This document shows, one piece after another, positions 18,408 through 64,000 of a DNA stretch of 64,000 nucleotides; positions within the stretch are counted from its first letter, which is position 1, and the number at the start of each line of letters is the position of its first letter. Where the stretch lies: contig CACLFK010000002.1 of NCBI GenBank assembly GCA_902606105.1, forward strand, positions 43,776 through 107,775, written 5' to 3'. Below the pieces are notes generated by a model, which saw nothing but the letters and a program-made list of their open reading frames with translations, searched no databases and was not told the origin of the DNA. The stretch comes from an uncultured Pelagibacteraceae bacterium (GTDB lineage: Bacteria > Pseudomonadota > Alphaproteobacteria > Pelagibacterales > Pelagibacteraceae). The position numbers and the translations under genes are program-made.

Positions 18408-18991
18408 CTAATTTCCTTTAAGTATTCTTTGATTTTTTGAATAGGAAGTCCCATTATAGTGTTTTCATCTCCCGTAATTTCTGAAAATAATTTTCTTCCC
18501 TCGCCTTCTATTTGATAAACATTATAAGCATAAAGTGTGTTGTCAGAAATTTTTGCTAAATACATTATTAGTTCTTGTTCAGTAAAATTTTTCATTTTTA
18601 GCTTTGCTTTATCTGTATGATTCCAGATCATTGATCCATTCTTTGATATACAAACGGAGCTAATCAGACAATGTTCTTTACCATTAAGTTTCTTTAGTAT
18701 TAACAATGCCTCTTTTCTATTTTCTGGCTTTGAAATTAATTCTCCCTCCAAATCAATTACACTGTCAGCGCCCAACACAAATTGGTCATGATTTTTTAAA
18801 CTTACTTTGTTGGCTTTCAATTCAGCCAAATTTTTTGAGATAATTTCAGGTGTAGCCTTTTCATTTAAGAGACTTTGTTTCACCATGTCCTCATCCACAT
18901 TTGAAGGTATGACATCACAAAATATTTCGTTTTTGTCTAAAATATTTTTTCTAACCTTGCTCTTAGATGCTAAAATTATATTATTTAACAT
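18404..18991 (-). CDS. maf: Maf-family nucleoside triphosphate pyrophosphatase
   Basis: House-cleaning enzyme that hydrolyses non-canonical or modified NTPs; overexpression of family members blocks septation. The N-terminal motif ILASKSKVRKNIL is a diverged form of the usual ASxSPRR pattern, having KV where PR is common. The conserved VLGADSVIDLEGELISKPENRKEALLILKKLNGKEH and a C-terminal MGLPIQKIKEYL are clear. It has 195 residues. Which Maf subtype (dTTP/UTP or m7GTP) cannot be decided by eye. Confidence 0.93.
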   Translation of the reverse strand: MLNNIILASKSKVRKNILDKNEIFCDVIPSNVDEDMVKQSLLNEKATPEIISKNLAELKANKVSLKNHDQFVLGADSVIDLEGELISKPENRKEALLILKKLNGKEHCLISSVCISKNGSMIWNHTDKAKLKMKNFTEQELIMYLAKISDNTLYAYNVYQIEGEGRKLFSEITGDENTIMGLPIQKIKEYLKEIR

Positions 18992-19808
18992 TATTTGAAT
19001 ATATTTCGTGTATTTTGATGATAGATGCAGCTGTTTCTTCTACTGATTTTCTAGTAACGTCAATAACAGGCCAATTATATTTTTTAAAAGTTTTTTTCGC
19101 TTTTACAACCTCGTCTCTGATATCATCAAGATTGGTATAATTTGTATTATCATTCTCTTTAAGAGAATTCATTCTGTTTTTTCTTAAATCGACCAATCTT
19201 TCTGGCTCTGTGCTTAAACCGACAACGCATGTAAATTGTGGATTTTGTTTTAATTTTTCAGGCAACGAATTTTCATTGACTAGGGGTATATTTGATGTTT
19301 TAAAACCTTTGTTTGCAAGATAGATAGAAGTTGGAGTTTTGCTAGTTCTACTAACCCCTACTAATATGATGTCTGACTTATCAATCTCATTGACTAAATT
19401 TCCATCATCATGATTCATTGTAAATTGTATAGCCTCTATTCTATCATAATATTCTTCATTTAAGATATGTTGACCGCTAGGCTCGTGGGAAGCCTTTTGA
19501 TTTAAAATTTTTGAGAAATTTAAAATAAGGTTTCCCAGAACTCCAAAACAAGGAATTTTTTTATCGTTACTTATATTAGCTAAATATTTAGCAAGATTAT
19601 TATCCACAATTGTATATAAGATTATTGAATTTTTTTTGCTTTGTGCGTCTTCTAAAATTTTTAAAATTTGATTTTCTGTTCTAGTAAAAGAATATGAGTG
19701 AATTTTATATTCAATATTTTTAAATTGTGCTTTAAGTGCTAAAAAAATTCTCTCTAGAGTTTCACCAGTTGAATCTGATATTAAATATATCTGATATGTA
19801 TTAATCAT
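18981..19808 (-). CDS. ppsR: Pyruvate phosphate dikinase / PEP synthase regulatory protein (DUF299)
   Basis: A bifunctional kinase/pyrophosphorylase that switches PEP synthase or PPDK by phosphorylating a Thr next to the catalytic His. The 275 residues show the family start YLISDSTGETLERI, the P-loop-like GVSRTSKTPTSIYLANKG, and a C-terminal PVIDVTRKSVEETAASII. The target enzyme is not in this window. It is the first gene of a minus-strand run starting at the candidate origin, and overlaps maf by 11 bp. Confidence 0.93.
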   Translation of the reverse strand: MINTYQIYLISDSTGETLERIFLALKAQFKNIEYKIHSYSFTRTENQILKILEDAQSKKNSIILYTIVDNNLAKYLANISNDKKIPCFGVLGNLILNFSKILNQKASHEPSGQHILNEEYYDRIEAIQFTMNHDDGNLVNEIDKSDIILVGVSRTSKTPTSIYLANKGFKTSNIPLVNENSLPEKLKQNPQFTCVVGLSTEPERLVDLRKNRMNSLKENDNTNYTNLDDIRDEVVKAKKTFKKYNWPVIDVTRKSVEETAASIIKIHEIYSNNVK

Positions 19809-19856
19809 GAAAAAATTGTAAATAAATATGTATTATTCTAATAAAATTGCTCAATT

Positions 19857-19982
19857 TAAGTTTTATGTAATTACACTTGTAAAATGAAAGTTTTATTAAC
19901 AATAATAATAAATTCAATTAAACAATACATGAATGTTAATAAAGGTCAAAAAAGCCTCATTTTTATAAGTTTTATTTAATTA
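19857..19982. repeat. Direct and inverted repeats within the candidate origin
   Basis: TAAGTTTTATGTAATTA (19857-19873) recurs as TAAGTTTTATTTAATTA (19966-19982), 16 of 17 positions identical and 109 bp apart. Between them, TTTATTAACA (19892-19901) and TGTTAATAAA (19934-19943) form a perfect 10-bp inverted pair. The nested arrangement resembles an origin or a regulatory region, although low complexity makes some matching likely by chance. Confidence 0.55.
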
Positions 19983-20068
19983 AAGATGTGGTTAAAAAGT
20001 GAATATAATGTTTAAAATTAATAATCATCATAATCCACAGGACATAAAACTAATACAATAATTATATA

Positions 20069-20074
20069 TATAAT
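20069..20074 (+). promoter_or_regulatory. Candidate -10 box for hemE
   Basis: TATAAT ends 6 nt before the hemE ATG, so a transcript from it would start at the start codon. No good -35 was found, and the site lies in an AT-only run, so support is weak. Confidence 0.35.
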
Positions 20075-20080
20075 TTTTAT

Positions 20081-21082
20081 ATGACCCCATTACACGAAGT
20101 AATTATAAATAATAAAACAAGTATAAAACCTGTGTGGATAATGAGGCAAGCTGGTAGATATTTACCAGAATTTAGAGAGATAAGAAAAAATAACCCAAAT
20201 TTTATTGAATTGTGCTTAAATGATAAATTATCTTCAAAAATTACACTTCAGCCAATAAGAAGATTTAGTTTAGATGCTGCAATAATATTTTCTGATATTT
20301 TAATGTTACCTTACGGATTAAATCAAAAAGTCGAGTTTAAAAAAAATTTTGGTCCAGTGCTTGGTAATTTAGATATTACTGCAATGTCAAAGATAGATGA
20401 TATAGATTTTGTAGAGAAAATTTATCCGGTATATAAGGCTATAAAATTTGTAAGTTCAGAAATGAATTTAACAAATAAAAATACAATTGGTTTTGTAGGT
20501 GCACCTTGGACATTACTTGTTTATATGATCAACCAACAATCACCCAAAAAAAGTGTAAAAAAAAATTTTTTTGATGATGAATATTTAATAAATAGAATAT
20601 TATTAATCATAGAAAAATTTTTAAAAGTTCACATTAGAAATCAAGTTGAAAATGGCGCTAATGTGATACAAATATTTGATAGTTGGGCTGGATTGTTAGA
20701 GGAAAGAGATTATCCAAATTACATTTATACACCTACTTTAAATTTAGTAAATTTTGTAAAGTCATTAAATGTTCCGGTAATTTGTTTTCCAAGGGAAATC
20801 AAAAATTATAAAGAATTTTGTGAAATAGTTAAACCTGATGCAATTAGTATTGATTACAATGTTGATCCTTTATTCATCAGAAAAAATATAAAGATACCTG
20901 TTCAAGGTGGATTGGATCCAAAAATTTTGTTAACCGATCAAGAAAATCTAAAAAAACAGACCAAGAAATATTTGGATATATTTAAAGATCATCCATATAT
21001 TTTTAATCTTGGCCACGGTATTTTGCCTGAGACCAATATAGAAATGGTCGAATGTTTAATAAAGACCATACAGGATTTTTAA
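20081..21082 (+). CDS. hemE: Uroporphyrinogen decarboxylase
   Basis: Converts uroporphyrinogen III to coproporphyrinogen III in heme synthesis. The signature PVWIMRQAGRYLPEFREIR is at residues ~18-36. The catalytic Asp region is AAIIFSDILMLPYGL, and FVGAPWTLLVYMI, QIFDSWAGLL and FNLGHGILPET are all conserved. It has 333 residues. It begins a heme operon hemE-hemH-hemJ. The codons of the PVWIM motif contain an exact DnaA box (20133-20141). Confidence 0.98.
   Translation: MTPLHEVIINNKTSIKPVWIMRQAGRYLPEFREIRKNNPNFIELCLNDKLSSKITLQPIRRFSLDAAIIFSDILMLPYGLNQKVEFKKNFGPVLGNLDITAMSKIDDIDFVEKIYPVYKAIKFVSSEMNLTNKNTIGFVGAPWTLLVYMINQQSPKKSVKKNFFDDEYLINRILLIIEKFLKVHIRNQVENGANVIQIFDSWAGLLEERDYPNYIYTPTLNLVNFVKSLNVPVICFPREIKNYKEFCEIVKPDAISIDYNVDPLFIRKNIKIPVQGGLDPKILLTDQENLKKQTKKYLDIFKDHPYIFNLGHGILPETNIEMVECLIKTIQDF
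20133..20141 (-). promoter_or_regulatory. Exact DnaA-box match inside hemE
   Basis: TGTGGATAA on the plus strand is the reverse complement of TTATCCACA. It lies 52 bp inside hemE, in codons for the conserved V-W-I, so protein constraint explains part of it. Its closeness to the candidate origin makes a binding role possible. Confidence 0.45.
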
Positions 21083-22081
21083 ATGAAAACCGACAGTAAT
21101 CATCCGCTTATAAAATTTGGGAAAACTGGTGTTCTTATTATTAATCTAGGGACTCCTGACTCTACAAGTTGGTTTGATATTCGAAAATATTTAAAAGAAT
21201 TTTTATCAGACAAGAGAGTTATAGAAGTTAATCCTATAATTTGGAAAATAGTTTTAAATCTATTTATTTTAACTTTTAGACCATCTAAAACAGCAAAAGC
21301 TTATAAAGAAATTTGGATGCGAAATGAAAACATGTCCCCTCTTTTATACTATACAAAAAAGCAAAACGAAAAAATCTCTAAGCTTATAACAAAAGAAAAT
21401 TTAATAATGGATTTTGCTATGAGGTATGGAAATCCAAGCATTAAAAATAAAATTTATAAACTTCAGGAGCAAGGTTGCGAAAATTTAGTCATATTACCTC
21501 TCTATCCACAATATGCAGCAGCAACAACTGCAACAGTGTGTGATGAAGTTTATAGAACCTTGATGAAAATGAGGTGGCAACCTTCTTTAAAAATAATTTC
21601 TCATTATGAGTCAGATCCGCTTTATATCGATGCACTAGTTAATTCTATTAATAAGAAGATTAGTGAAATAAATTGGAAGCCAGATTTAATAATCGCCTCG
21701 TATCACGGAATACCTAAAAAATATTTTGATAAGGGTGATCCTTATCATTGTTATTGTCATAAAACGACCAGGCTTATTTCTGAAAAATTTAACTCTATTG
21801 AAATAAAAACTACATTCCAGTCTAGATTTGGACCTCAAGAGTGGTTACAACCTTACACAGACAAGACCTTAGATAGTTTACCAGGAGAGGGAAAGAAGAA
21901 TATCCTTGTAATCTGCCCTGGATTTTCTTCTGACTGTGTAGAAACCTTAGAGGAAATTTTAATTCAAGGTAAAGAGAGCTTTTTAAATTCTGGAGGTGAA
22001 AATTTTGACATGGTCCCATGCCTAAATGATAACGATGATCATATAGTTTTATTAAAATCTTTAATTGAAAAAAATATTTAA
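21083..22081 (+). CDS. hemH: Ferrochelatase
   Basis: Inserts Fe(II) into protoporphyrin IX, the last step of heme synthesis, at the inner membrane. GVLIINLGTPDS near the N terminus, the metal-site ASYHGIPKKYFDKGDPYHCYC, FQSRFGPQEWLQPYTD and the C-terminal LVICPGFSSDCVETLEEI are all family motifs. Its 332 residues are typical. It starts directly after the hemE stop (TAA-ATG), so the two are cotranscribed. Confidence 0.97.
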   Translation: MKTDSNHPLIKFGKTGVLIINLGTPDSTSWFDIRKYLKEFLSDKRVIEVNPIIWKIVLNLFILTFRPSKTAKAYKEIWMRNENMSPLLYYTKKQNEKISKLITKENLIMDFAMRYGNPSIKNKIYKLQEQGCENLVILPLYPQYAAATTATVCDEVYRTLMKMRWQPSLKIISHYESDPLYIDALVNSINKKISEINWKPDLIIASYHGIPKKYFDKGDPYHCYCHKTTRLISEKFNSIEIKTTFQSRFGPQEWLQPYTDKTLDSLPGEGKKNILVICPGFSSDCVETLEEILIQGKESFLNSGGENFDMVPCLNDNDDHIVLLKSLIEKNI

Positions 22082-22084
22082 AAG

Positions 22085-22519
22085 ATGAACACTTATTTAT
22101 TATTCAAATCTTTGCATTTGATAGCAGTTATTTCATGGCTGGCTGGCCTTCTATATTTACCAAGAATTTTTGTTTATCATGCAGAAAGTAATTCTGATAC
22201 AAATATTTCTGAAATCTTTAAAACGATGGAAAGAAAACTTTACTTTTACATAATGACTCCAGCTATGACTTTATCGTGGTTGTTTGGACTTTTGCTTATT
22301 CATAGCATCGGTTTCCAACAGCTTAGTCAAACTTGGATGCTATTAAAGTTGCTATTTGTAATTATTCTTACTTTGTACCACTTTTATTTGGGTAAGTTAC
22401 TTGGTCAGTTCAAGACAGACAGTAACAGACATTCTCACAAGTTTTATCGTTATATAAACGAAATACCCACAATATTGCTGATTTTGATCATTTTTGTTGT
22501 TATTTTTAAACCAATCTAG
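22085..22519 (+). CDS. hemJ: Protoporphyrinogen oxidase HemJ
   Basis: A 144-residue membrane protein with about four transmembrane helices. The first helix pair contains HLIAVISWLAGLLYLPRIFVYH, with the conserved His and Arg that bind heme in the HemJ (UPF0093) family, and the second carries YFYIMTPAMTLSWLFGLLLI. HemJ oxidises protoporphyrinogen IX. Position right after hemH, 3 bp away, means three consecutive late heme steps are encoded together. No other protoporphyrinogen oxidase is visible here. Confidence 0.92.
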   Translation: MNTYLLFKSLHLIAVISWLAGLLYLPRIFVYHAESNSDTNISEIFKTMERKLYFYIMTPAMTLSWLFGLLLIHSIGFQQLSQTWMLLKLLFVIILTLYHFYLGKLLGQFKTDSNRHSHKFYRYINEIPTILLILIIFVVIFKPI

Positions 22520-22521
22520 GG

Positions 22522-22551
22522 TTGAAAAAAAACAAAGAGAATATATATTAT
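22522..22551 (+). promoter_or_regulatory. Sigma-70-type promoter of rho
   Basis: TTGAAA, 18-bp spacer, TATTAT (5/6). The predicted transcription start is near 22558, about 28 nt before the rho ATG, immediately beside a 16-bp palindrome (22559-22574). Confidence 0.55.
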
Positions 22552-22558
22552 TTATACC

Positions 22559-22574
22559 TGATAAGTCCTTATCA
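22559..22574. promoter_or_regulatory. Palindrome at the rho transcription start
   Basis: TGATAAG-TC-CTTATCA has 7-bp perfect arms and a 2-nt centre. It begins at the predicted transcription start of rho, a position suited to an operator. As RNA the 2-nt loop is too tight for all pairs. No regulator is known to me for this sequence. Confidence 0.45.
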
Positions 22575-22585
22575 AAAATTAAATC

Positions 22586-23854
22586 ATGAACATTCAAGAA
22601 TTAAAATTAAAATCATCTGAACAGCTTATTACTCAGGCAGAAGAGCTTGGTATTGAAAATGCAAGTACTTTAAGAAAACAAGAGATTCTTTTTGCTATCT
22701 TGAAGAAAGTTGCTGAGAAAGAAGAAATTACTGGAGTAGGAGTTTTACAATTATTACAGGATGGATTTGGTTTTTTAAGAGCAATGGAATCAAATTATTT
22801 ACCTGGTCCAGATGATATATACGTTAGCCCAAGTCAGATTAGAAAATTTGGATTAAGAACAGGTGATACAGTGGAAGGACCTGTTAGAGCACCAAAAGAA
22901 GGTGAAAGATATTTTGCATTGCTTCAAGTCAGTAAAATTAATTTTGAAGAGCCAGAAAAAGCAAGACACAAAATTGCATTTGATAACCTTACACCACTTT
23001 ATCCTGATAAGCAGTTAGTTATGGAAGTTGAAACCACTAAAGTTGAGAAGAAACCAGACTTAACACCAAGACTGATTGATTTGGTTAGTCCGATTGGTAA
23101 AGGACAAAGATCTATAATAATTTCACCTCCTAAAGCTGGTAAAACTATGATTTTACAGAGTATTGCTAACTCTATAGCGAAAAATTATCCAGAGTGTTAT
23201 TTAATTGTATTGCTAATTGATGAACGTCCAGAAGAAGTAACAGACATGCAAAGAACAGTAAAAGGTGAAGTAATTAGCTCAACTTTTGATGAACCTGCTC
23301 AAAGACATGTTGCTGTAGCTGAGATGGTTATCGAAAAGGCAAAAAGATTAACTGAACACAAAAAAGATGTAGTTATACTTTTAGACTCAATAACAAGATT
23401 GGGAAGAGCTTACAACGCTGTCATACCAAGTTCAGGAAAAGTTCTAACAGGTGGTGTTGACGCTAATGCACTCCAAAGACCAAAAAGATTTTTTGGTGCA
23501 GCCAGAAATATTGAAGAAGGAGGTTCTTTAACAATTATCTCAACTGCTTTGATTGATACTGGAAGTAGAATGGACGAAGTAATTTTTGAGGAATTTAAAG
23601 GAACTGGTAATAGCGAAACAGTTCTTGATAGAAAAATTGCGGATAAAAGAATTTACCCAGCAATTGATATAACAAAATCAGGCACAAGAAGAGAAGAATT
23701 ATTATTTGACAAAAATGATCTTCAAAAAATGAATGTCTTAAGAAGAATTATAGCACCTATGGGAACTATGGATGCTATAGAGTTTATCAATTCAAAATTA
23801 AAAGACACAAAAAATAATTCAGAGTTTTTTAACTCCATGAATAAACCTGCCTAA
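22586..23854 (+). CDS. rho: Transcription termination factor Rho
   Basis: Hexameric RNA helicase that terminates transcription. An N-terminal helical and cold-shock RNA-binding domain (~1-125: [47 protein letters not shown]) precedes the ATPase core. The core has Walker [16 protein letters not shown], Walker [18 protein letters not shown], and the R-loop/Q-loop region [19 protein letters not shown]. Its 422 residues are close to E. coli Rho, with no insertion. It has its own promoter between hemJ and itself. Confidence 0.98.
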
Positions 23855-23875
23855 CAAATTAAATTTAATTTAAGT

Positions 23876-23905
23876 TTTACAGCAGCATAAATTTGAAGTT
23901 ATAAT
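23876..23905 (+). promoter_or_regulatory. Sigma-70-type promoter of mnmE
   Basis: TTTACA (5/6), 18-bp spacer, TATAAT (6/6). The -10 ends 6 nt before the ATG at 23912, so transcription should start at the A of the start codon and give a leaderless mRNA. Confidence 0.6.
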
Positions 23906-23913
23906 CTTCAAAT
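23891..23913. repeat. Inverted repeat enclosing the mnmE -10 box
   Basis: ATTTGAAG-ttataat-CTTCAAAT has perfect 8-bp arms. The TATAAT lies inside the centre and the right arm runs into the start codon, so a protein bound here would block polymerase. Chance is possible but the arms contain G-C pairs. Confidence 0.5.
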
Positions 23914-25243
23914 GACAATTTATGCTTTATCCAGTGGACCAGGAATATCAGGTATAGCCGTTGTAAGAATTTCAGGCGAAGATACTTCCAAAGCGATAGA
24001 GCTAATGACCGGTAAGGGTTTACCCAGGCCAAGAGTGGCAACACTCAGAAAAATCAACAAAATCAACACTTCTGAGCTTATAGATGAAGGTCTAATATTA
24101 TGGTTTCCTGGCCCTGAGAGCTACACAGGTGAGGATATGGCCGAAATACAAGTGCATGGCAGTAAAGCTGTAATAGATGCCTTACATACCAACATATCGA
24201 AAATTAAAAATTGTCGTCTAGCTGAGCCTGGAGAATTCACAAAGCTTGCATTTCAAAATGGCAAAATAAATTTACTAAAAGCAGAGAGTGTTGCTGATTT
24301 AATTTCATCGGAAACTGAAATTCAAAGACAGCAAGCAATTAAAATAATGAATGGTCGATCAGCAGACCAATTTAATTTTTTAAGAGAAAAATTATTAAAA
24401 ATTTTATCCCATGTTGAAGCCAAAATAGATTTTCCTGATGAAGATTTGCCAAAGGATATTTTAAATGAAATTAAAAAAAGTTCAGATGAAGTTTTAAAAA
24501 AAATAGAAAAAATTTTGGACGATCAAAAAGTTGGAGAGATAATTAGGGAAGGATTTAAAATTGCTATTCTTGGACCTACTAATGCAGGCAAGTCTAGCTT
24601 GCTCAATCATTTGTCGAACAGAGATGTTGCAATTGTATCTGAAATTGCAGGAACGACTAGAGATGTAATTGAAACTCATCTTAATATTGACGGTTACCCA
24701 GTTATAGTTTCGGATACCGCTGGTATAAGAGAATCTAAAGACGAAATTGAAAAAAAAGGTATAAAATTATCACTTCGTAGAGCAGAAGAAGCAGACCTTA
24801 AGCTAGTAGTTGTAGATGCTAAAAACCTTGAATTTACTGATGTTTTGAGGAGATTATTAGATAAAAATGCCATTTTAGTGATTAATAAATCAGATCTTTT
24901 AGAAGAAGACATTGATCCTGAAATAAAAAAAATTAATCATGTTCTAATTTCAATCAAGGATAATTCAAATATTGATGAATTAATTTTGAATATAAAAAAT
25001 AATTTAAAAAATAAATTTATAACAAGTGATGATATTCTAATTACTAGAGAGCGGCACAGACAACATCTTCAACAATGTTTAGATCATTTAAAAAACTTTA
25101 ATCAAAAAAAAGAAATTGAAGATTTTGATAAAGCGGCTGAGGATTTAAGATTAGCTACGAGGCATCTCGGAATGATTGTTGGAAAAGTTGATGTAGATGA
25201 GATATTAGGCAGTATTTTCAACGATTTTTGTATAGGTAAATAA
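23912..25243 (+). CDS. mnmE: tRNA modification GTPase MnmE
   Basis: With MnmG it builds the 5-(carboxymethyl)aminomethyl group on wobble uridines of tRNAs. N-terminal folate-binding domain (~1-115; SSGPGISGIAVVRISG, VHGSKAVID), helical domain, then an inserted Ras-like G domain with G1 GPTNAGKSSLLN, G2 GTTRDV, G3 DTAGIRES and G4 NKSD. It ends in the required C-terminal CIGK motif with the catalytic Cys. Its 443 residues are normal. mnmG follows after 117 bp. Confidence 0.98.
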   Translation: MTIYALSSGPGISGIAVVRISGEDTSKAIELMTGKGLPRPRVATLRKINKINTSELIDEGLILWFPGPESYTGEDMAEIQVHGSKAVIDALHTNISKIKNCRLAEPGEFTKLAFQNGKINLLKAESVADLISSETEIQRQQAIKIMNGRSADQFNFLREKLLKILSHVEAKIDFPDEDLPKDILNEIKKSSDEVLKKIEKILDDQKVGEIIREGFKIAILGPTNAGKSSLLNHLSNRDVAIVSEIAGTTRDVIETHLNIDGYPVIVSDTAGIRESKDEIEKKGIKLSLRRAEEADLKLVVVDAKNLEFTDVLRRLLDKNAILVINKSDLLEEDIDPEIKKINHVLISIKDNSNIDELILNIKNNLKNKFITSDDILITRERHRQHLQQCLDHLKNFNQKKEIEDFDKAAEDLRLATRHLGMIVGKVDVDEILGSIFNDFCIGK

Positions 25244-25360
25244 TAATGAATTTATCTGTATTTTTTGCTGTTTTTGACCATAAATCGTTAGTATTCAACA
25301 CTTATTTGCTAAAAGTAAGAGGTATCTTGTAAATAAAATAATCAGTTATAAGTTTAGCTG

Positions 25361-27232
25361 ATGAAAAATGATTTATCATTTGATGTAGTAGTAATAGGCG
25401 GTGGACATGCAGGTTGTGAAGCGGCAACAGCTTCTGCACGTTTAGGAGTTAACACTGCTTTATTTACTCATAAGATTGAAACGATTGGTGAGATGTCGTG
25501 TAATCCAGCTATAGGAGGATTAGGTAAAGGTCATTTAGTTAGAGAAATAGATGCTCTTGATGGTGTTATGGGTGAGATTGCTGATAAGTCGGGAATACAG
25601 TTTAGGTTGTTAAATAGAAGTAGAGGTCCTGCTGTTCGTGGACCAAGAACTCAGTCAGACAGATCTTTATATCGAAAGTATATGCAAGAAAAACTTGCAA
25701 ATTACTGTAATTTAAGCATTTTTTCAGATCCTGTAATTAAGTTTATTTTTAATAAAAACACCATAAGTGGGTTTCAAACAAAGAAAGGTAAAAAAGTTAC
25801 ATGTAGCAAGTTAATACTAACAACAGGCACTTTTCTAAATGGTTTGATACACATAGGTGATGAAAAAACACCGGCAGGAAGATATGATGAAAAACCTTCC
25901 ACAGGTTTAAGTGAACAATTACAAAAATATGATTTCAAAATTGGAAGATTAAAAACTGGAACCCCTCCTCGATTAGATTCAAGAACTATAAATTATAAAA
26001 ATTTAGAAGAACAGTTTGCAGACGATGATCCTTATTTTTTTTCTTTTCTAACTAAAAAAAATATAAACGAACAAGTGACATGTAGGATGACATACACCAA
26101 TCACAAGGTACATAAGATTATAGAAAAGAATTTGTCCAAAAGTGCGATGTACTCAGGTAGTATAAAAGGTATTGGACCAAGATACTGTCCGTCTATAGAA
26201 GATAAAATAGTAAAATTCTCGGATAAAGGACGACATCAGATATTTTTGGAGCCAGAGGGACTAAATGACCACACAATTTATCCAAATGGCATCTCCACAT
26301 CACTACCTAGCGAAGTACAGTATGAAATATGCAATAATATCAATGGTTTAGAGAATGTAAAAATTATTAGACCCGGATATGCTATAGAATATGACTATGT
26401 CGACCCTAGGGAGCTCTTTCTTACCCTTGAGACAAAAAAAATTAATAATCTTTATCTAGCTGGCCAAATCAATGGAACCACTGGTTATGAGGAAGCAGCA
26501 TCGCAAGGTCTTATTGCTGGAATAAATGCTGCATTATCTATCAAGGGACAAGAGCCATTTATATTAGATAGATCTGATGCATACATAGGAGTAATGATTG
26601 ATGACTTAGTAACCAAAGGTGTTGCTGAACCCTATAGAATGTTTACTTCTCGAGCAGAATACAGATTAAGCTTGAGAGCAGATAATGCTGATCAAAGATT
26701 GACTGATAAAGGAATTGAAATTGGATTAATTGGATATCAAAGAAAGGAGATATATTTAGACAAATCTCAAAAATTAAAAAATATTTGTAATAAAATGCTT
26801 AAATCTCATATTTCTCCAAATAAAGCTGAAAGCTATGGTATAAAGATAGCTAAAGATGGAATTCTAAGGTCTTCGAATCAAATTTTAACTCAAAAAGGTG
26901 TTGATATGCCTAAAATAAGAGAAATTTGGAGTGATATACCCTATTATGATAATGAAATTGATGAGCAGATAGAAATAAATGCTCATTATATAGGTTATTT
27001 AAAAAAGCAAAAAGCTGACATTCTTGCATTTAAAAGAGATGAAAACCTAATGATTCCTGAAAAAATTGATTATAATAAACTTTCAGGTCTATCAAATGAG
27101 GTAAAGGCAAAATTTAGCCAAATTAAGCCCAAAACTATGGGTCAGGCCTTAAGAATTGATGGAATTACTCCTGCAGCTGTATATATTTTGTTGTCACATG
27201 TAAAAAGAAAGTCTATTAAGCATATAGCTTAA
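25361..27232 (+). CDS. mnmG: tRNA uridine-5-carboxymethylaminomethyl modification enzyme MnmG (GidA)
   Basis: FAD-dependent partner of MnmE. N-terminal Rossmann motif [21 protein letters not shown], followed by [25 protein letters not shown] with its conserved Cys, then [11 protein letters not shown], the second family signature [24 protein letters not shown], and the C-terminal helical domain that contacts MnmE ([19 protein letters not shown]). It has 623 residues. It overlaps rsmG by 1 bp (TAATG). The 117-bp spacer upstream shows no clear gene. Confidence 0.98.
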
Positions 27233-27885
27233 TGGATCAAGAAATTATAAATTCTTATTCAAAACTTTCAGGGTTAAATGTTTCACGTGAAACATTTTCA
27301 GACTTCGAAAGCTATATATCAATGATCCTAGAAAAAAATGAAAAAATCAATTTAATTAGCGATAAATTTAGTGAAAAAAATGATATAATTGAGCGTCATA
27401 TTATTGATTCTGCTCAAATAATTGATATTGTTGACTTTAATAGCAATACAACTACAGATATAGGTTCAGGAAGTGGAATGCCGGGCATAATCATAGCAAT
27501 TTTACTTAAAAGCCTTAAAAAAGATATAAAGGTCAAGCTTTATGAAAAAAGCTACCATAAAAGCCATTTTCTTAGAGATGTTTCTACAAAATTAAATTTA
27601 AAAACAGAAATAATACAAAAAAATATTTTTGAAGAAAAAAAATTAGAAACAGGAACAATAATGTCTAGAGCATTTAAACCGATGCCAGTAGTGTTAGATT
27701 TAGTAAATGAAAATTTTTCTAATTTTTCAAATATAATTTTTTTTATGGGCAAGAGTGGAAGAGAAATTTTTCAAAATACTTTAAAGGATTGGGATTTAGA
27801 TTATTCCGAAAAAAAAAGTTTAACCAGCGAAGAATCTTTTTTAGTAAATGTGAAAAAAATTAAAAAAAAAATTAAAAAAAACTAA
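27232..27885 (+). CDS. rsmG: 16S rRNA m7G527 methyltransferase RsmG (GidB)
   Basis: SAM-dependent enzyme that methylates G527 of 16S rRNA. The N-terminal LNVSRETF contains the codons that carry parS; the SAM site is TTDIGSGSGMPGIIIAILL, and MSRAFKPM is also conserved. Its 217 residues end in a Lys-rich tail (KKIKKKIKKN). It begins within the mnmG stop and abuts parA (TAA-ATG). Confidence 0.96.
   Translation: MDQEIINSYSKLSGLNVSRETFSDFESYISMILEKNEKINLISDKFSEKNDIIERHIIDSAQIIDIVDFNSNTTTDIGSGSGMPGIIIAILLKSLKKDIKVKLYEKSYHKSHFLRDVSTKLNLKTEIIQKNIFEEKKLETGTIMSRAFKPMPVVLDLVNENFSNFSNIIFFMGKSGREIFQNTLKDWDLDYSEKKSLTSEESFLVNVKKIKKKIKKN
27279..27294. promoter_or_regulatory. parS centromere site
   Basis: TGTTTCACGTGAAACA is a perfect 16-bp palindrome identical to the widely conserved chromosomal parS bound by ParB. 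It lies inside rsmG, about 590 bp before parA, and encodes V-S-R-E-T. It is the only exact copy I noticed in the window. Confidence 0.95.
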
Positions 27886-28680
27886 ATGCAAATTATTTCG
27901 GTTATAAACCAAAAGGGTGGGGTTGGTAAAACAACTTCTGCAATCAACCTGGCAGCAGGATTATCTCAACAGAACAAGAAAATTCTAGTAGTAGATTTAG
28001 ATCCACAAGGAAATGCAACTACCGGCCTTGGATTATCCAACATGGAAAATTCTTCAGAGACAATTTACGGGGTCCTTAATGGAACTAAAGAAATAAGCGA
28101 TGTGATTAAAAAAACACAGTTTGAAAATCTCGATATAATAACCTCCAATGTAGACTTATCTGGTCTTGAGGTGGAGACGGCTGATGATAGCAATAGAGCT
28201 TTTTTGTTAAAAGTAAAATTAACCGCATATTTAAACAATTCTGGATGCACATATGATTATATATTAATAGATTGTCCACCATCTCTAAGCTTACTGACTG
28301 TAATGGCGCTGGTAAGCTCAACCTCACTTTTAGTCCCACTCCAAACAGAATTTTTTGCTTTAGAAGGTTTAACTCAGTTAATTAAAACAATTGAGAGAAT
28401 AAAAGTAAGTCTTAACCCTGACTTGAGCATTAGAGGAATACTATTAACGATGTATGATAAACGAAATAAGCTGTCCTCTCAAGTTGAGAAAGAGGCTAGA
28501 GATTATTTTAATGAAAAAGTTTATTCAACAGTAATTCCTAGGAACGTTAGATTGTCAGAAGCACCTTCTCACGGGATGCCAGTTCTAATGTACGATAAGA
28601 CTTGTCTAGGTAGTAAAGCATATTTTAGTTTTACAGATGAATTTTTAAATCAAGAAACAACAATGGGGAGTGCTGCTTAA
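27886..28680 (+). CDS. parA: Chromosome-partitioning ATPase ParA (Soj)
   Basis: Walker-type ATPase that moves ParB-parS complexes toward the cell pole. The deviant Walker A with the signature Lys is VINQKGGVGKTTSAINLAAG; switch I/A' is DLDPQGNATTGLG and Walker B is YDYILIDCPPSLSLLTV. The 264 residues match the short chromosomal type without an N-terminal DNA-binding domain. It follows rsmG with no gap and overlaps parB by 1 bp. Confidence 0.98.
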   Translation: MQIISVINQKGGVGKTTSAINLAAGLSQQNKKILVVDLDPQGNATTGLGLSNMENSSETIYGVLNGTKEISDVIKKTQFENLDIITSNVDLSGLEVETADDSNRAFLLKVKLTAYLNNSGCTYDYILIDCPPSLSLLTVMALVSSTSLLVPLQTEFFALEGLTQLIKTIERIKVSLNPDLSIRGILLTMYDKRNKLSSQVEKEARDYFNEKVYSTVIPRNVRLSEAPSHGMPVLMYDKTCLGSKAYFSFTDEFLNQETTMGSAA

Positions 28681-29528
28681 TGGATTCTAATAAAATAAAA
28701 AGAGGTCTTGGAAGAGGCTTATCATCTCTTATAGGTGAAACTAAAGTTGAGGCCCAAAAAAATATGCTTGGCGTTAGTGATCTTGTACCTAATAAATATC
28801 AACCAAGAAAAATATTTGATGAGGACAATTTAAACGAACTTGCAAATTCAATTAAAGAAAGAGGAATTTTACAACCAATCATTGTTCGAAAATCCAATGA
28901 TGATCAATCAAAGTTTGAGATAATAGCTGGAGAGAGAAGGTGGCTTGCCGCTCAAAAAATTGGTCTTCATGATGTGCCTGTAGTGATAACAGAGGCAGAC
29001 AATTTAAAATCTTTGGAATTTGCAATTATCGAAAATGTTCAAAGACATGATTTGAATCCACTAGAGGAAGCGCAAGGATATAAAAAATTAATAGATGAAT
29101 TTTCATATGATCAAGAAAAAGTTTCAAGATTTATAGGTAAAAGTCGAAGTTATATTGCCAACGCACTAAGACTTTTGTCTCTACCAGATGAGGTGGTTAA
29201 GCTGATAGAAAACCAAAAATTATCTAGCGGTCATGCAAAAATTTTAGTTGGGTTAGAAAATGTTACTTTTGTAGCTAATAAAATAGTTGAGAAAAAACTC
29301 TCAGTTAGACAAGCTGAAAACTTTGTAAAATTATTTAAAAATAAAAGGCAAAAAAAAAATAATTCAAAAGATGCAAATATAATGCATTTAGAAATGGCTA
29401 TAGTAAATAAACTTGGTTTAAATGTTGAAATTAAAAACAAAAAAAACAACAAGGGTAAAATTATATTTGAATATAAAAGCCTTGATCAGTTAAATAAAAT
29501 TGTAGAGATAATTAAAGCTAATTATTAG
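28680..29528 (+). CDS. parB: Chromosome-partitioning protein ParB (Spo0J)
   Basis: CTP-dependent clamp that loads at parS. It starts with RGLGRGLSSLIGE, the ParA-contacting end. The CTP-binding domain has the GERRWLAAQK and ENVQRHDLNPLEEAQGYKKLIDEF boxes, and the helix-turn-helix for parS follows (VSRFIGKSRSYIANALRLLSLP). A dimerisation domain ends the 282 residues. It begins inside the parA stop (TAATG). Its last 11 bp overlap the convergent holA. Confidence 0.98.
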   Translation: MDSNKIKRGLGRGLSSLIGETKVEAQKNMLGVSDLVPNKYQPRKIFDEDNLNELANSIKERGILQPIIVRKSNDDQSKFEIIAGERRWLAAQKIGLHDVPVVITEADNLKSLEFAIIENVQRHDLNPLEEAQGYKKLIDEFSYDQEKVSRFIGKSRSYIANALRLLSLPDEVVKLIENQKLSSGHAKILVGLENVTFVANKIVEKKLSVRQAENFVKLFKNKRQKKNNSKDANIMHLEMAIVNKLGLNVEIKNKKNNKGKIIFEYKSLDQLNKIVEIIKANY

Positions 29529-43702: not shown

Positions 43703-44353
43703 TTATTTATCCTCTTTATTTTCTTTATTTTCCTCAGTTTTTTCCTCTTTTTTTAAAATTTTTTTAGACACACCAACTAATGAAGGTCTAAGTAACCTGT
43801 CTTTAATAGTAAATCCTTTTTGAATTTCCTGAATAATTGTTCCAGGTTCTTTTGCGTCATCCTCTATTTCCATCATTGCCTGATGAAAGTTGGGGTCTAA
43901 TTTTTTATTTAAACTTTCTATTGGCTTAATATTGTTTTTCTCAAAAATTGAAATAGTATCCTTCTGAATAATATCTAAATGTTCTAGAGATTTTTTAAGA
44001 GCTTCGGTATCTTTTAATTTCTCATCAGTTTCTAAAATCTGTTTTGATCTTTCTAAGTTATCAATTAAATTTAATGCTTCTTTAGCAAAACTATAACCCC
44101 CATACTCAAATGCTTCCTCTTTTTCTTTTTCAAATCTTCTTCTTTGATTTTCCATCTCAGCAAAAGTTCTTACTATTTTGTCCTCAAGCTCAATAATTTT
44201 TTCTTCTGGAGTAGGCTCTTTAATTTCTTCCTTAGCCTCTTGAGCTGTTTCTTGTTTATTTTCAATATTTAAATTTTCCTCAGGTTTAGCTGTTTCTTTT
44301 TCTGGCTCCTGATGATTTTGAGCAGCAGTATTTTGGTTTTCTTCTTTTTCCAT
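43703..44353 (-). CDS. grpE: Nucleotide exchange factor GrpE
   Basis: Releases ADP from DnaK. A Glu/Lys/Gln-rich disordered N terminus (~1-55) is followed by the long coiled coil (ENQRRRFEKEKEEAFEYGGYSFAKEALNLIDNLERSK) and the C-terminal beta wing with NFHQAMMEIEDDAKEPGTIIQEIQKGFTIKDRLLRPSLVGVSK. The 216 residues are typical. It is divergent from rdgB. I do not see hrcA next to it, in line with RpoH rather than HrcA control. Confidence 0.97.
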   Translation of the reverse strand: MEKEENQNTAAQNHQEPEKETAKPEENLNIENKQETAQEAKEEIKEPTPEEKIIELEDKIVRTFAEMENQRRRFEKEKEEAFEYGGYSFAKEALNLIDNLERSKQILETDEKLKDTEALKKSLEHLDIIQKDTISIFEKNNIKPIESLNKKLDPNFHQAMMEIEDDAKEPGTIIQEIQKGFTIKDRLLRPSLVGVSKKILKKEEKTEENKENKEDK

Positions 44354-63108: not shown

Positions 63109-63118
63109 GTGATGAGCT

Positions 63119-64000
63119 ATGGAAAAAAAAACAAAATTAACAATATCTGGCTCTGCCAAAAAATCGATCAAAAATATCGAGATTGCTAAAACTCAAAGCA
63201 AAAACGCAGTTGTCATAGAAAAGCAAACTGGAAAATTTCCAAATAGAGGAGGATCTTTTAGACCTAACCAAGGTAAACCAAAACCAACCTCTTCTTTTAG
63301 TAGGGGTACTGGAATTAAACCATCTTTTGCACCAAAATCACCCCCTATATCAAATGATTTTGAAAGACGTAAGCTTGCAGAGCAAAGAGCCACAAAGAGA
63401 CTTAAGGGTGATGGTGATGGTAAAGATAAAAAAACTTTAAAGTCTGGAACAAAAAAAAGAGAATTAAAATTAACAGTTTCAAGAGCTCTAAGTGACGAAA
63501 TAGAGGCAAGAGAAAGAAGTTTAGCTTCAGTAAAAAGAGCAAGACTAAAAGAGAATAAAAATTTATCTAAAGATCAAAATCAAGAAAGTCTCAAACCAGT
63601 TAAAAGAGATATCAATATTCCAGAAGCTATCACTGTTAGAGAGTTAGCCAATAGAATGGCTGAGCAATCCAGCAATGTAATTAAATATTTATTTGGAATG
63701 GGAGTGACAGTTACAATCAACCAAACTCTTGCAGCAGATACAGCTGAGTTTTTAGTTAAAGAGTTTGGACACAATCCTATTAGAGAAGAAAAAGCAGAGG
63801 AAATAATTCAGAAAATAAAAGCAACAAGAGTAGAAAATTTAAAAAATAGACCCCCAATTGTTACGGTGATGGGACACGTTGATCATGGTAAAACATCAGT
63901 TCTTGATGTTTTGAGAAGTGCAAATGTTGTATCAGCAGAATTTGGTGGAATAACTCAACACATCGGGGCCTATCAAATTGAAAGCCAAGATAACAAACTA
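63119..64000 (+). CDS. infB: Translation initiation factor IF-2, 3' end missing
   Basis: Not in the ORF track because it runs off the window. The ATG at 63119 is 10 bp after the nusA stop and the frame stays open for 294 codons. The N-terminal ~150 residues are a Lys/Ser-rich low-complexity region. Then comes the IF2_N helix-bundle [28 protein letters not shown], and the start of the G domain with G1 [16 protein letters not shown], followed by [12 protein letters not shown]. ylxR, often between nusA and infB, is absent. Confidence 0.97.

Follow-up and report, generated by a model that had tools for sequence, protein, structure and literature searches.

A candidate SAR11 chromosome origin between ppsR and hemE with A/T-shifted DnaA-box-like sites

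The replication origins of Caulobacter crescentus (Cori) and Rickettsia prowazekii both lie between hemE and a gene of COG1806, the ppsR family (PMC1914354). We analysed a 64-kb stretch of DNA (the window; positions 43776–107775 of contig C2 in a 1.03-Mb draft genome of 49 contigs) in which the same pair of genes encloses a 272-bp gap. Among named organisms, the nearest relatives of this genome belong to the Pelagibacteraceae, the SAR11 group. Like the Caulobacter and Rickettsia origins, this gap is non-coding, is A/T-richer than the genome and holds weak DnaA boxes (PMC1914354, PMC4285127), for which Caulobacter provides a precedent (PMC4285127). Unlike those origins, which measure about 384–404 bp, the SAR11 gap is shorter; SAR11 gaps are not enriched in CtrA, IHF or GANTC sites, and their boxes are spelled TTATTMACA, whereas the other two origins carry TGATCCACA and W-boxes.

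The oriC of P. ubique HTCC1062 is stated to have been identified manually (PMC4033161), and we found no description of the SAR11 box pattern or trio track in the open-access papers that we searched. The location of the gap is of a known kind and ordinary for the class; the box pattern and the trio track are the informative part. We consider it very likely that positions 19809–20080 are the chromosome origin, oriC, with a DnaA-box array and a trio track, a predicted replication role that draws on sequence evidence from position, skew, conservation, box enrichment, triplet periodicity and an intact box-reading domain of DnaA.

Position and persistence of the gap

Gene names were assigned from Pfam families and gene order, which gave the following features around the gap.

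19809–20080, no strand: proposed oriC, the non-coding gap between ppsR and hemE (272 bp, longest gap, conserved length, skew minimum in relatives)
18981–19808, minus strand: ppsR (COG1806, kinase-pyrophosphorylase), left boundary gene (Pfam PF03618, 1.1e-90)
20081–21082, plus strand: hemE (uroporphyrinogen decarboxylase), right boundary gene (Pfam PF01208, 1e-84)
27279–27294, no strand: parS, a perfect palindrome TGTTTCACGTGAAACA inside gidB (from sequence and its counterpart in the related genome G012)
27886–29528, plus strand: parA and parB, chromosome segregation (Pfam AAA_31, ParB_N, HTH_ParB, ParB_C)

An earlier note on this DNA had described the gap as the longest non-coding stretch in the window, and we recovered exactly its borders and its length; the next longest stretches, of 226 and 186 bp, lie at the right end of the window and are followed by one of 157 bp. 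The flanking genes diverge, as that note also stated: dnaQ-coaE-aroE-maf-ppsR run leftwards from 19808 to 16383, and hemE-hemH-hemJ-rho-mnmE-gidA-gidB-parA-parB run rightwards from 20081 to 29528. The parS site that it placed about 7.2 kb from the gap is present at that distance, and its counterpart in G012 (at 1,254,719; 15 of 16 positions matching) lies about as far from the gap there. We counted this single good parS at 7 kb in favour of the oriC reading. The gaps average 83.3% A+T (n = 113), compared with 71.5% for the G012 genome. No Rfam family or terminator-like site was detected in the gap. At the right end of the window, positions 63109–64000 contain only short open reading frames besides the 186- and 226-bp stretches, an unusual arrangement for a compact genome, and gave no Rfam match.

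A check set beforehand was whether the cumulative GC-skew minimum falls at or near the gap, and, as the host genome is a 49-contig draft, it was made in three related single-contig genomes: G012 (complete; 1,343,202 bp), G081 (56% sampled) and G109 (another genus; 34% sampled). In G012, the gap, at 1.262 Mb, lies inside a broad trough at about 1.23–1.31 Mb, with the peak at 0.616 Mb. The minimum spans 0.878–0.938 Mb in G081, where the gap is at 0.910 Mb, and 1.073–1.078 Mb in G109, where the gap is at 1.090 Mb and the skew maximum (0.508–0.513 Mb) coincides with the antipode of the gap (0.510 Mb). The gap therefore falls in, or no more than about 20 kb from, the minimum in all three genomes, although the troughs are tens of kilobases wide, which places the region rather than the base and cannot single out the gap. 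A search for a dif site as terminus marker yielded no convincing candidate, which agrees with a published account in which P. ubique lacks dif/Xer (PMC2731167).

The breadth of the trough bears on the idea that replication starts at another place near the gap, such as the region upstream of dnaA that many bacteria use, leaving the gap a bystander. The distance between dnaA and the gap is about 62 kb in G012 and 61 kb in G081. However, the 347-bp gap upstream of dnaA (G012 1199794–1200140) contains neither TTWTNCACA nor TTATNNACA and lies outside the lowest part of the G012 trough, and the only triple TTATTMACA cluster of that genome is in the hemE gap. We consider a start elsewhere nearby very improbable.

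The gap is kept among close relatives, which was the second check: its length is 261–285 bp at 130 of 131 loci of the genus (counting the window and its own genome copy), and it is 258–283 bp in 14 genomes of four other genera. The one exception, L100, carries three inserted genes between ppsR and the gap, which still adjoins hemE and measures 274 bp. This insert (L100:6397–9726) encodes a methyltransferase, an uncharacterised protein and a PQQ-type beta-propeller dehydrogenase; it comes from a single-cell genome and may be a real insertion or an assembly error. In the sister family f2 (L264, L265, L266 and L267), ppsR was not found in the genomes listed for the family, and a gap of 271–280 bp lies between hemE and maf. 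In genus g2, the locus has lost hemE, hemH and hemJ, and a 353-bp gap separates ppsR from rho (L262:5330–5682, L263:5650–6002); a g2 genome has only a distant URO-D homologue (30% identity) elsewhere.

This survival of the gap after the loss of either boundary gene, or after a one-sided insertion, argues against a gap that merely supplies promoters to ppsR and hemE, in opposite directions, and has no role in replication. Divergent flanking genes do need promoters, and promoter-like hexamers are present (7 found, 5.5 expected). Nevertheless, the gap persists where maf replaces ppsR, where rho replaces hemE and where three genes are inserted opposite hemE; its dominant conserved words are DnaA-type boxes, for which it also tops the genome. 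A promoter-only role is thus, in our judgement, highly unlikely. The oriC reading, at which the earlier note had also arrived for a SAR11-type genome, gains support from the skew minimum of the relatives and the conservation of the gap. With the alphaproteobacterial origins between hemE and COG1806, the gap shares the interval, the skew minimum (in relatives), A/T-richness and a box cluster unmatched elsewhere.

A/T-shifted DnaA-box-like sites

We found six sites in the gap within one mismatch of the R-box consensus TTWTNCACA, and two perfect TTATCCACA outside it; conservation was scored in 112 aligned sequences.

19817–19825, minus strand: DnaA-box-like site 1, TTATTTACA in the window and TTATTAACA in most relatives (TTATNMACA exact in 67%, within one mismatch in 90%)
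19893–19901, plus strand: site 2, TTATTAACA, the most conserved (TTATNMACA exact in 94%, within one mismatch in 100%)
19934–19942, minus strand: site 3, TTATTAACA, lineage-specific (exact in 12% of the aligned relatives)
19987–19995, minus strand: site 4, TTAACCACA in the window, TTATTAACA commonest in relatives (TTATNMACA exact in 30%, within one mismatch in 88%)
20009–20017, minus strand: site 5, TTTTAAACA in the window, TTATAAACA commonest in relatives (TTATNMACA exact in 40%, within one mismatch in 77%)
20031–20039, plus strand: site 6, adjoining and pointing to the putative unwinding track, TAATCCACA in the window and TTATTCACA in 77 of 112 (TTWTNCACA exact in 69%, within one mismatch in 96%)
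19600–19608, plus strand: perfect TTATCCACA in ppsR, not conserved (TTWTNCACA exact in 4% of aligned sequences)
20133–20141, minus strand: perfect TTATCCACA in hemE, not conserved (exact in 1% of aligned sequences)

Only sites 4 and 6 lie within one mismatch of TTATCCACA, so the four one-mismatch boxes counted in the earlier note are reduced to two. The density of TTWTNCACA-like sites in the gap was matched by 0.13% of equal-size windows across the 64 kb. Site 2 is the most conserved, followed by sites 6 and 1; sites 4 and 5 are looser and site 3 is specific to the lineage. The two perfect TTATCCACA, which the earlier note had missed, are the only ones in the 64 kb; we rejected them as a flanking pair because neither is conserved in relatives. 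In 113 distinct gaps, TTATCCACA does not occur at all.

By contrast with first-order shuffles, which gave expectations of 8.0 and 0.77, TTATTAACA occurs at 196 sites in 107 of the 113 gaps and TTATTCACA at 89 sites in 81 of them; these counts come from related sequences, not independent events, and rank within a genome is the cleaner evidence. In the complete G012, the gap is the sole place with three TTATTMACA within 261 bp, and among G012 gaps of at least 180 bp, only the hemE gap has two TTWTNCACA sites. The gap also takes first place for TTATNMACA, both in the window and in what was sampled of G081 and G109. The suspicion that SAR11 origins have no clear row of consensus boxes was borne out in that the row is present but spelled TTATTMACA. 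Sites 1 to 6 form a candidate DnaA-binding array, shifted towards A/T and missed by the standard consensus. Domain IV of the DnaA encoded by the host genome is intact and aligns with the E. coli DnaA–box complex 1J1V over RPRQ, SLPEIG and RDHTT, which suggests that an ordinary DnaA would read the A/T-shifted sites.

The spelling has a parallel in Epsilonproteobacteria (Helicobacter, Wolinella), whose boxes as a rule have T at position 5; TTATTCACA matches TTWTTCACN and resembles TCATTCACN, and the box adjoining the unwinding element likewise has a conserved orientation (PMC5043019). Unlike the epsilonproteobacterial boxes, those of SAR11 also have A at position 6 (TTATTAACA), and the SAR11 origin does not flank dnaA.

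Another interpretation is that the gap is oriC but TTATTAACA serves a different regulator, CtrA for instance, which would leave the TTATTCACA-type site as the only DnaA box. TTATTAACA contains TTAAC, which we take to resemble a CtrA half-site. On the other hand, the full CtrA site TTAAN7TTAA stays at the level of the shuffles (38 vs 31 in the 113 gaps), aligned site 2 can hold either TTATTAACA or TTATTCACA, and the trio-side box of other genera is itself replaced by TTATTAACA (L253) or a different word with AACA at its end. CtrA does control the Caulobacter origin (PMC4285127), and we regard this division of labour as unlikely, though worth keeping in view; we favour DnaA as the reader of all six sites.

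No full CtrA, IHF or GANTC site occurs in the window gap, and the IHF consensus is found in at most 13 of the 113 gaps. In this the gap departs from the Caulobacter-type Cori, which has CtrA and IHF sites in the origin. The window gap and the 113 related gaps hold almost no GANTC, the methylation site of CcrM (2 vs 14 expected from shuffles); a CcrM homologue has been reported in SAR11 (PMC3973325). We also observed a conserved word at 19945–19965 of the window, AAAGCTTCA in many relatives and AAAAAGCCTCA in the window, one of the most enriched 9-mers and not a DnaA box.

A triplet track beside site 6

Two further features lie between site 6 and hemE.

20044–20064, minus strand (trios read 3' to 5'): DnaA-trio-like track of seven triplets, ATA-AAA-CTA-ATA-CAA-TAA-TTA on the plus strand (from A periodicity in 112 sequences)
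20057–20082, no strand: A/T-only run abutting the hemE start, a probable unwinding region that may hold the hemE promoter

Isolated trio counts are uninformative in A/T-rich DNA, so we tested periodicity in their place. Past the box at 20031–20039, A occupies offsets 6, 9, 12, 15 and 18 in 99–100% of the 112 aligned sequences and offset 21 in 91%. Column permutation, which keeps relatedness, gave p ≤ 0.0005 with 62, 15 or 7 representatives, and the track is non-coding. Most genomes of the other genera keep the same triplet phase, and 3 of 14 have A at only three of the five positions or need a shifted register. The sister family continues from its box with GGTA-CAA-CTA-CTA-CTA-CTA (L265) or GGCA-CAA-CTA-CTA-CTA-CTA (L266), and the g2 gap of L262 contains TTATAAACA-TGAC-CTA-ATA-ACA-AAA-CTA.

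Taken together, box and track look like the box-plus-trio unwinding element (BUS) of the Bacillus subtilis type, in which the box is likewise oriented to the triplets. The commonest DnaA-trio is 3'-GAT-5', which is CTA read on the box strand, and the 10 bp from box to first CTA in the window lie inside the published 10–13 bp peak (PMC8287927). With one mismatch and this spacing, TAATCCACA falls within the BUS box rule (at most two mismatches, 0–16 bp before the trios). The SAR11 element differs from the BUS in that conservation within its trios is highest at the outer T (3'-NNT-5') and not at the middle A, the published hallmark, and in that its trio-side box departs from TTATCCACA. At least three 3'-NAN-5' trios in succession are clear in L265 and L266, where CTA is repeated four times, and in those relatives that read ATA-ATA-CTA-ATA. 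The window's own run, taken in the conserved phase, breaks at CAA (given as the third trio), which has no middle A on the minus strand. Both this CAA and the box TAATCCACA are weak by published rules; the window itself is a weak case, and the trio and BUS identification therefore rests on the relatives.

The A/T-only run that had been pointed out beside hemE is present, but it is unremarkable, as the window has 11 A/T-only runs of at least 28 nt. We therefore rejected it as stand-alone evidence for an origin; duplex opening would probably occur there.

Proposed order of events

By analogy with known systems, DnaA, encoded elsewhere in the genome, would bind the short array of A/T-shifted 9-bp boxes (sites 1 to 6, consensus TTATTMACA), the last of which points to the unwinding side. 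From this box, a DnaA oligomer would extend over about seven 3-bp steps (20044–20064), gripping the minus strand as DnaA-trios, and would open the A/T-only stretch before hemE for helicase loading. The new origins would then be segregated by ParAB through the parS site 7 kb away. A broader reading, to which we give roughly even weight, is that the SAR11 origin is almost devoid of consensus high-affinity boxes, that the TTATTAACA array replaces them and is coupled to a seven-step trio track conserved at its outer base, and that this combination may be a lineage-specific variant of the unwinding element that outlives either boundary gene.

SAR11 cells are among the most abundant in the ocean, and metagenomic estimates of their growth depend on the start and end points of replication; a model of the origin at base level, with sites, orientation and trio track, would give coverage methods an anchor. 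The short gap DNA makes DnaA binding and unwinding in SAR11 testable in vitro, and lineages that lost flanking genes but retained the origin element form a natural comparison set.

We also observed a TATAAT-like sequence (window 20066–20081) whose end is 10 bp upstream of the hemE ATG. As no ribosome-binding site is obvious there, hemE may be a leaderless gene that has its promoter within the putative unwinding region.
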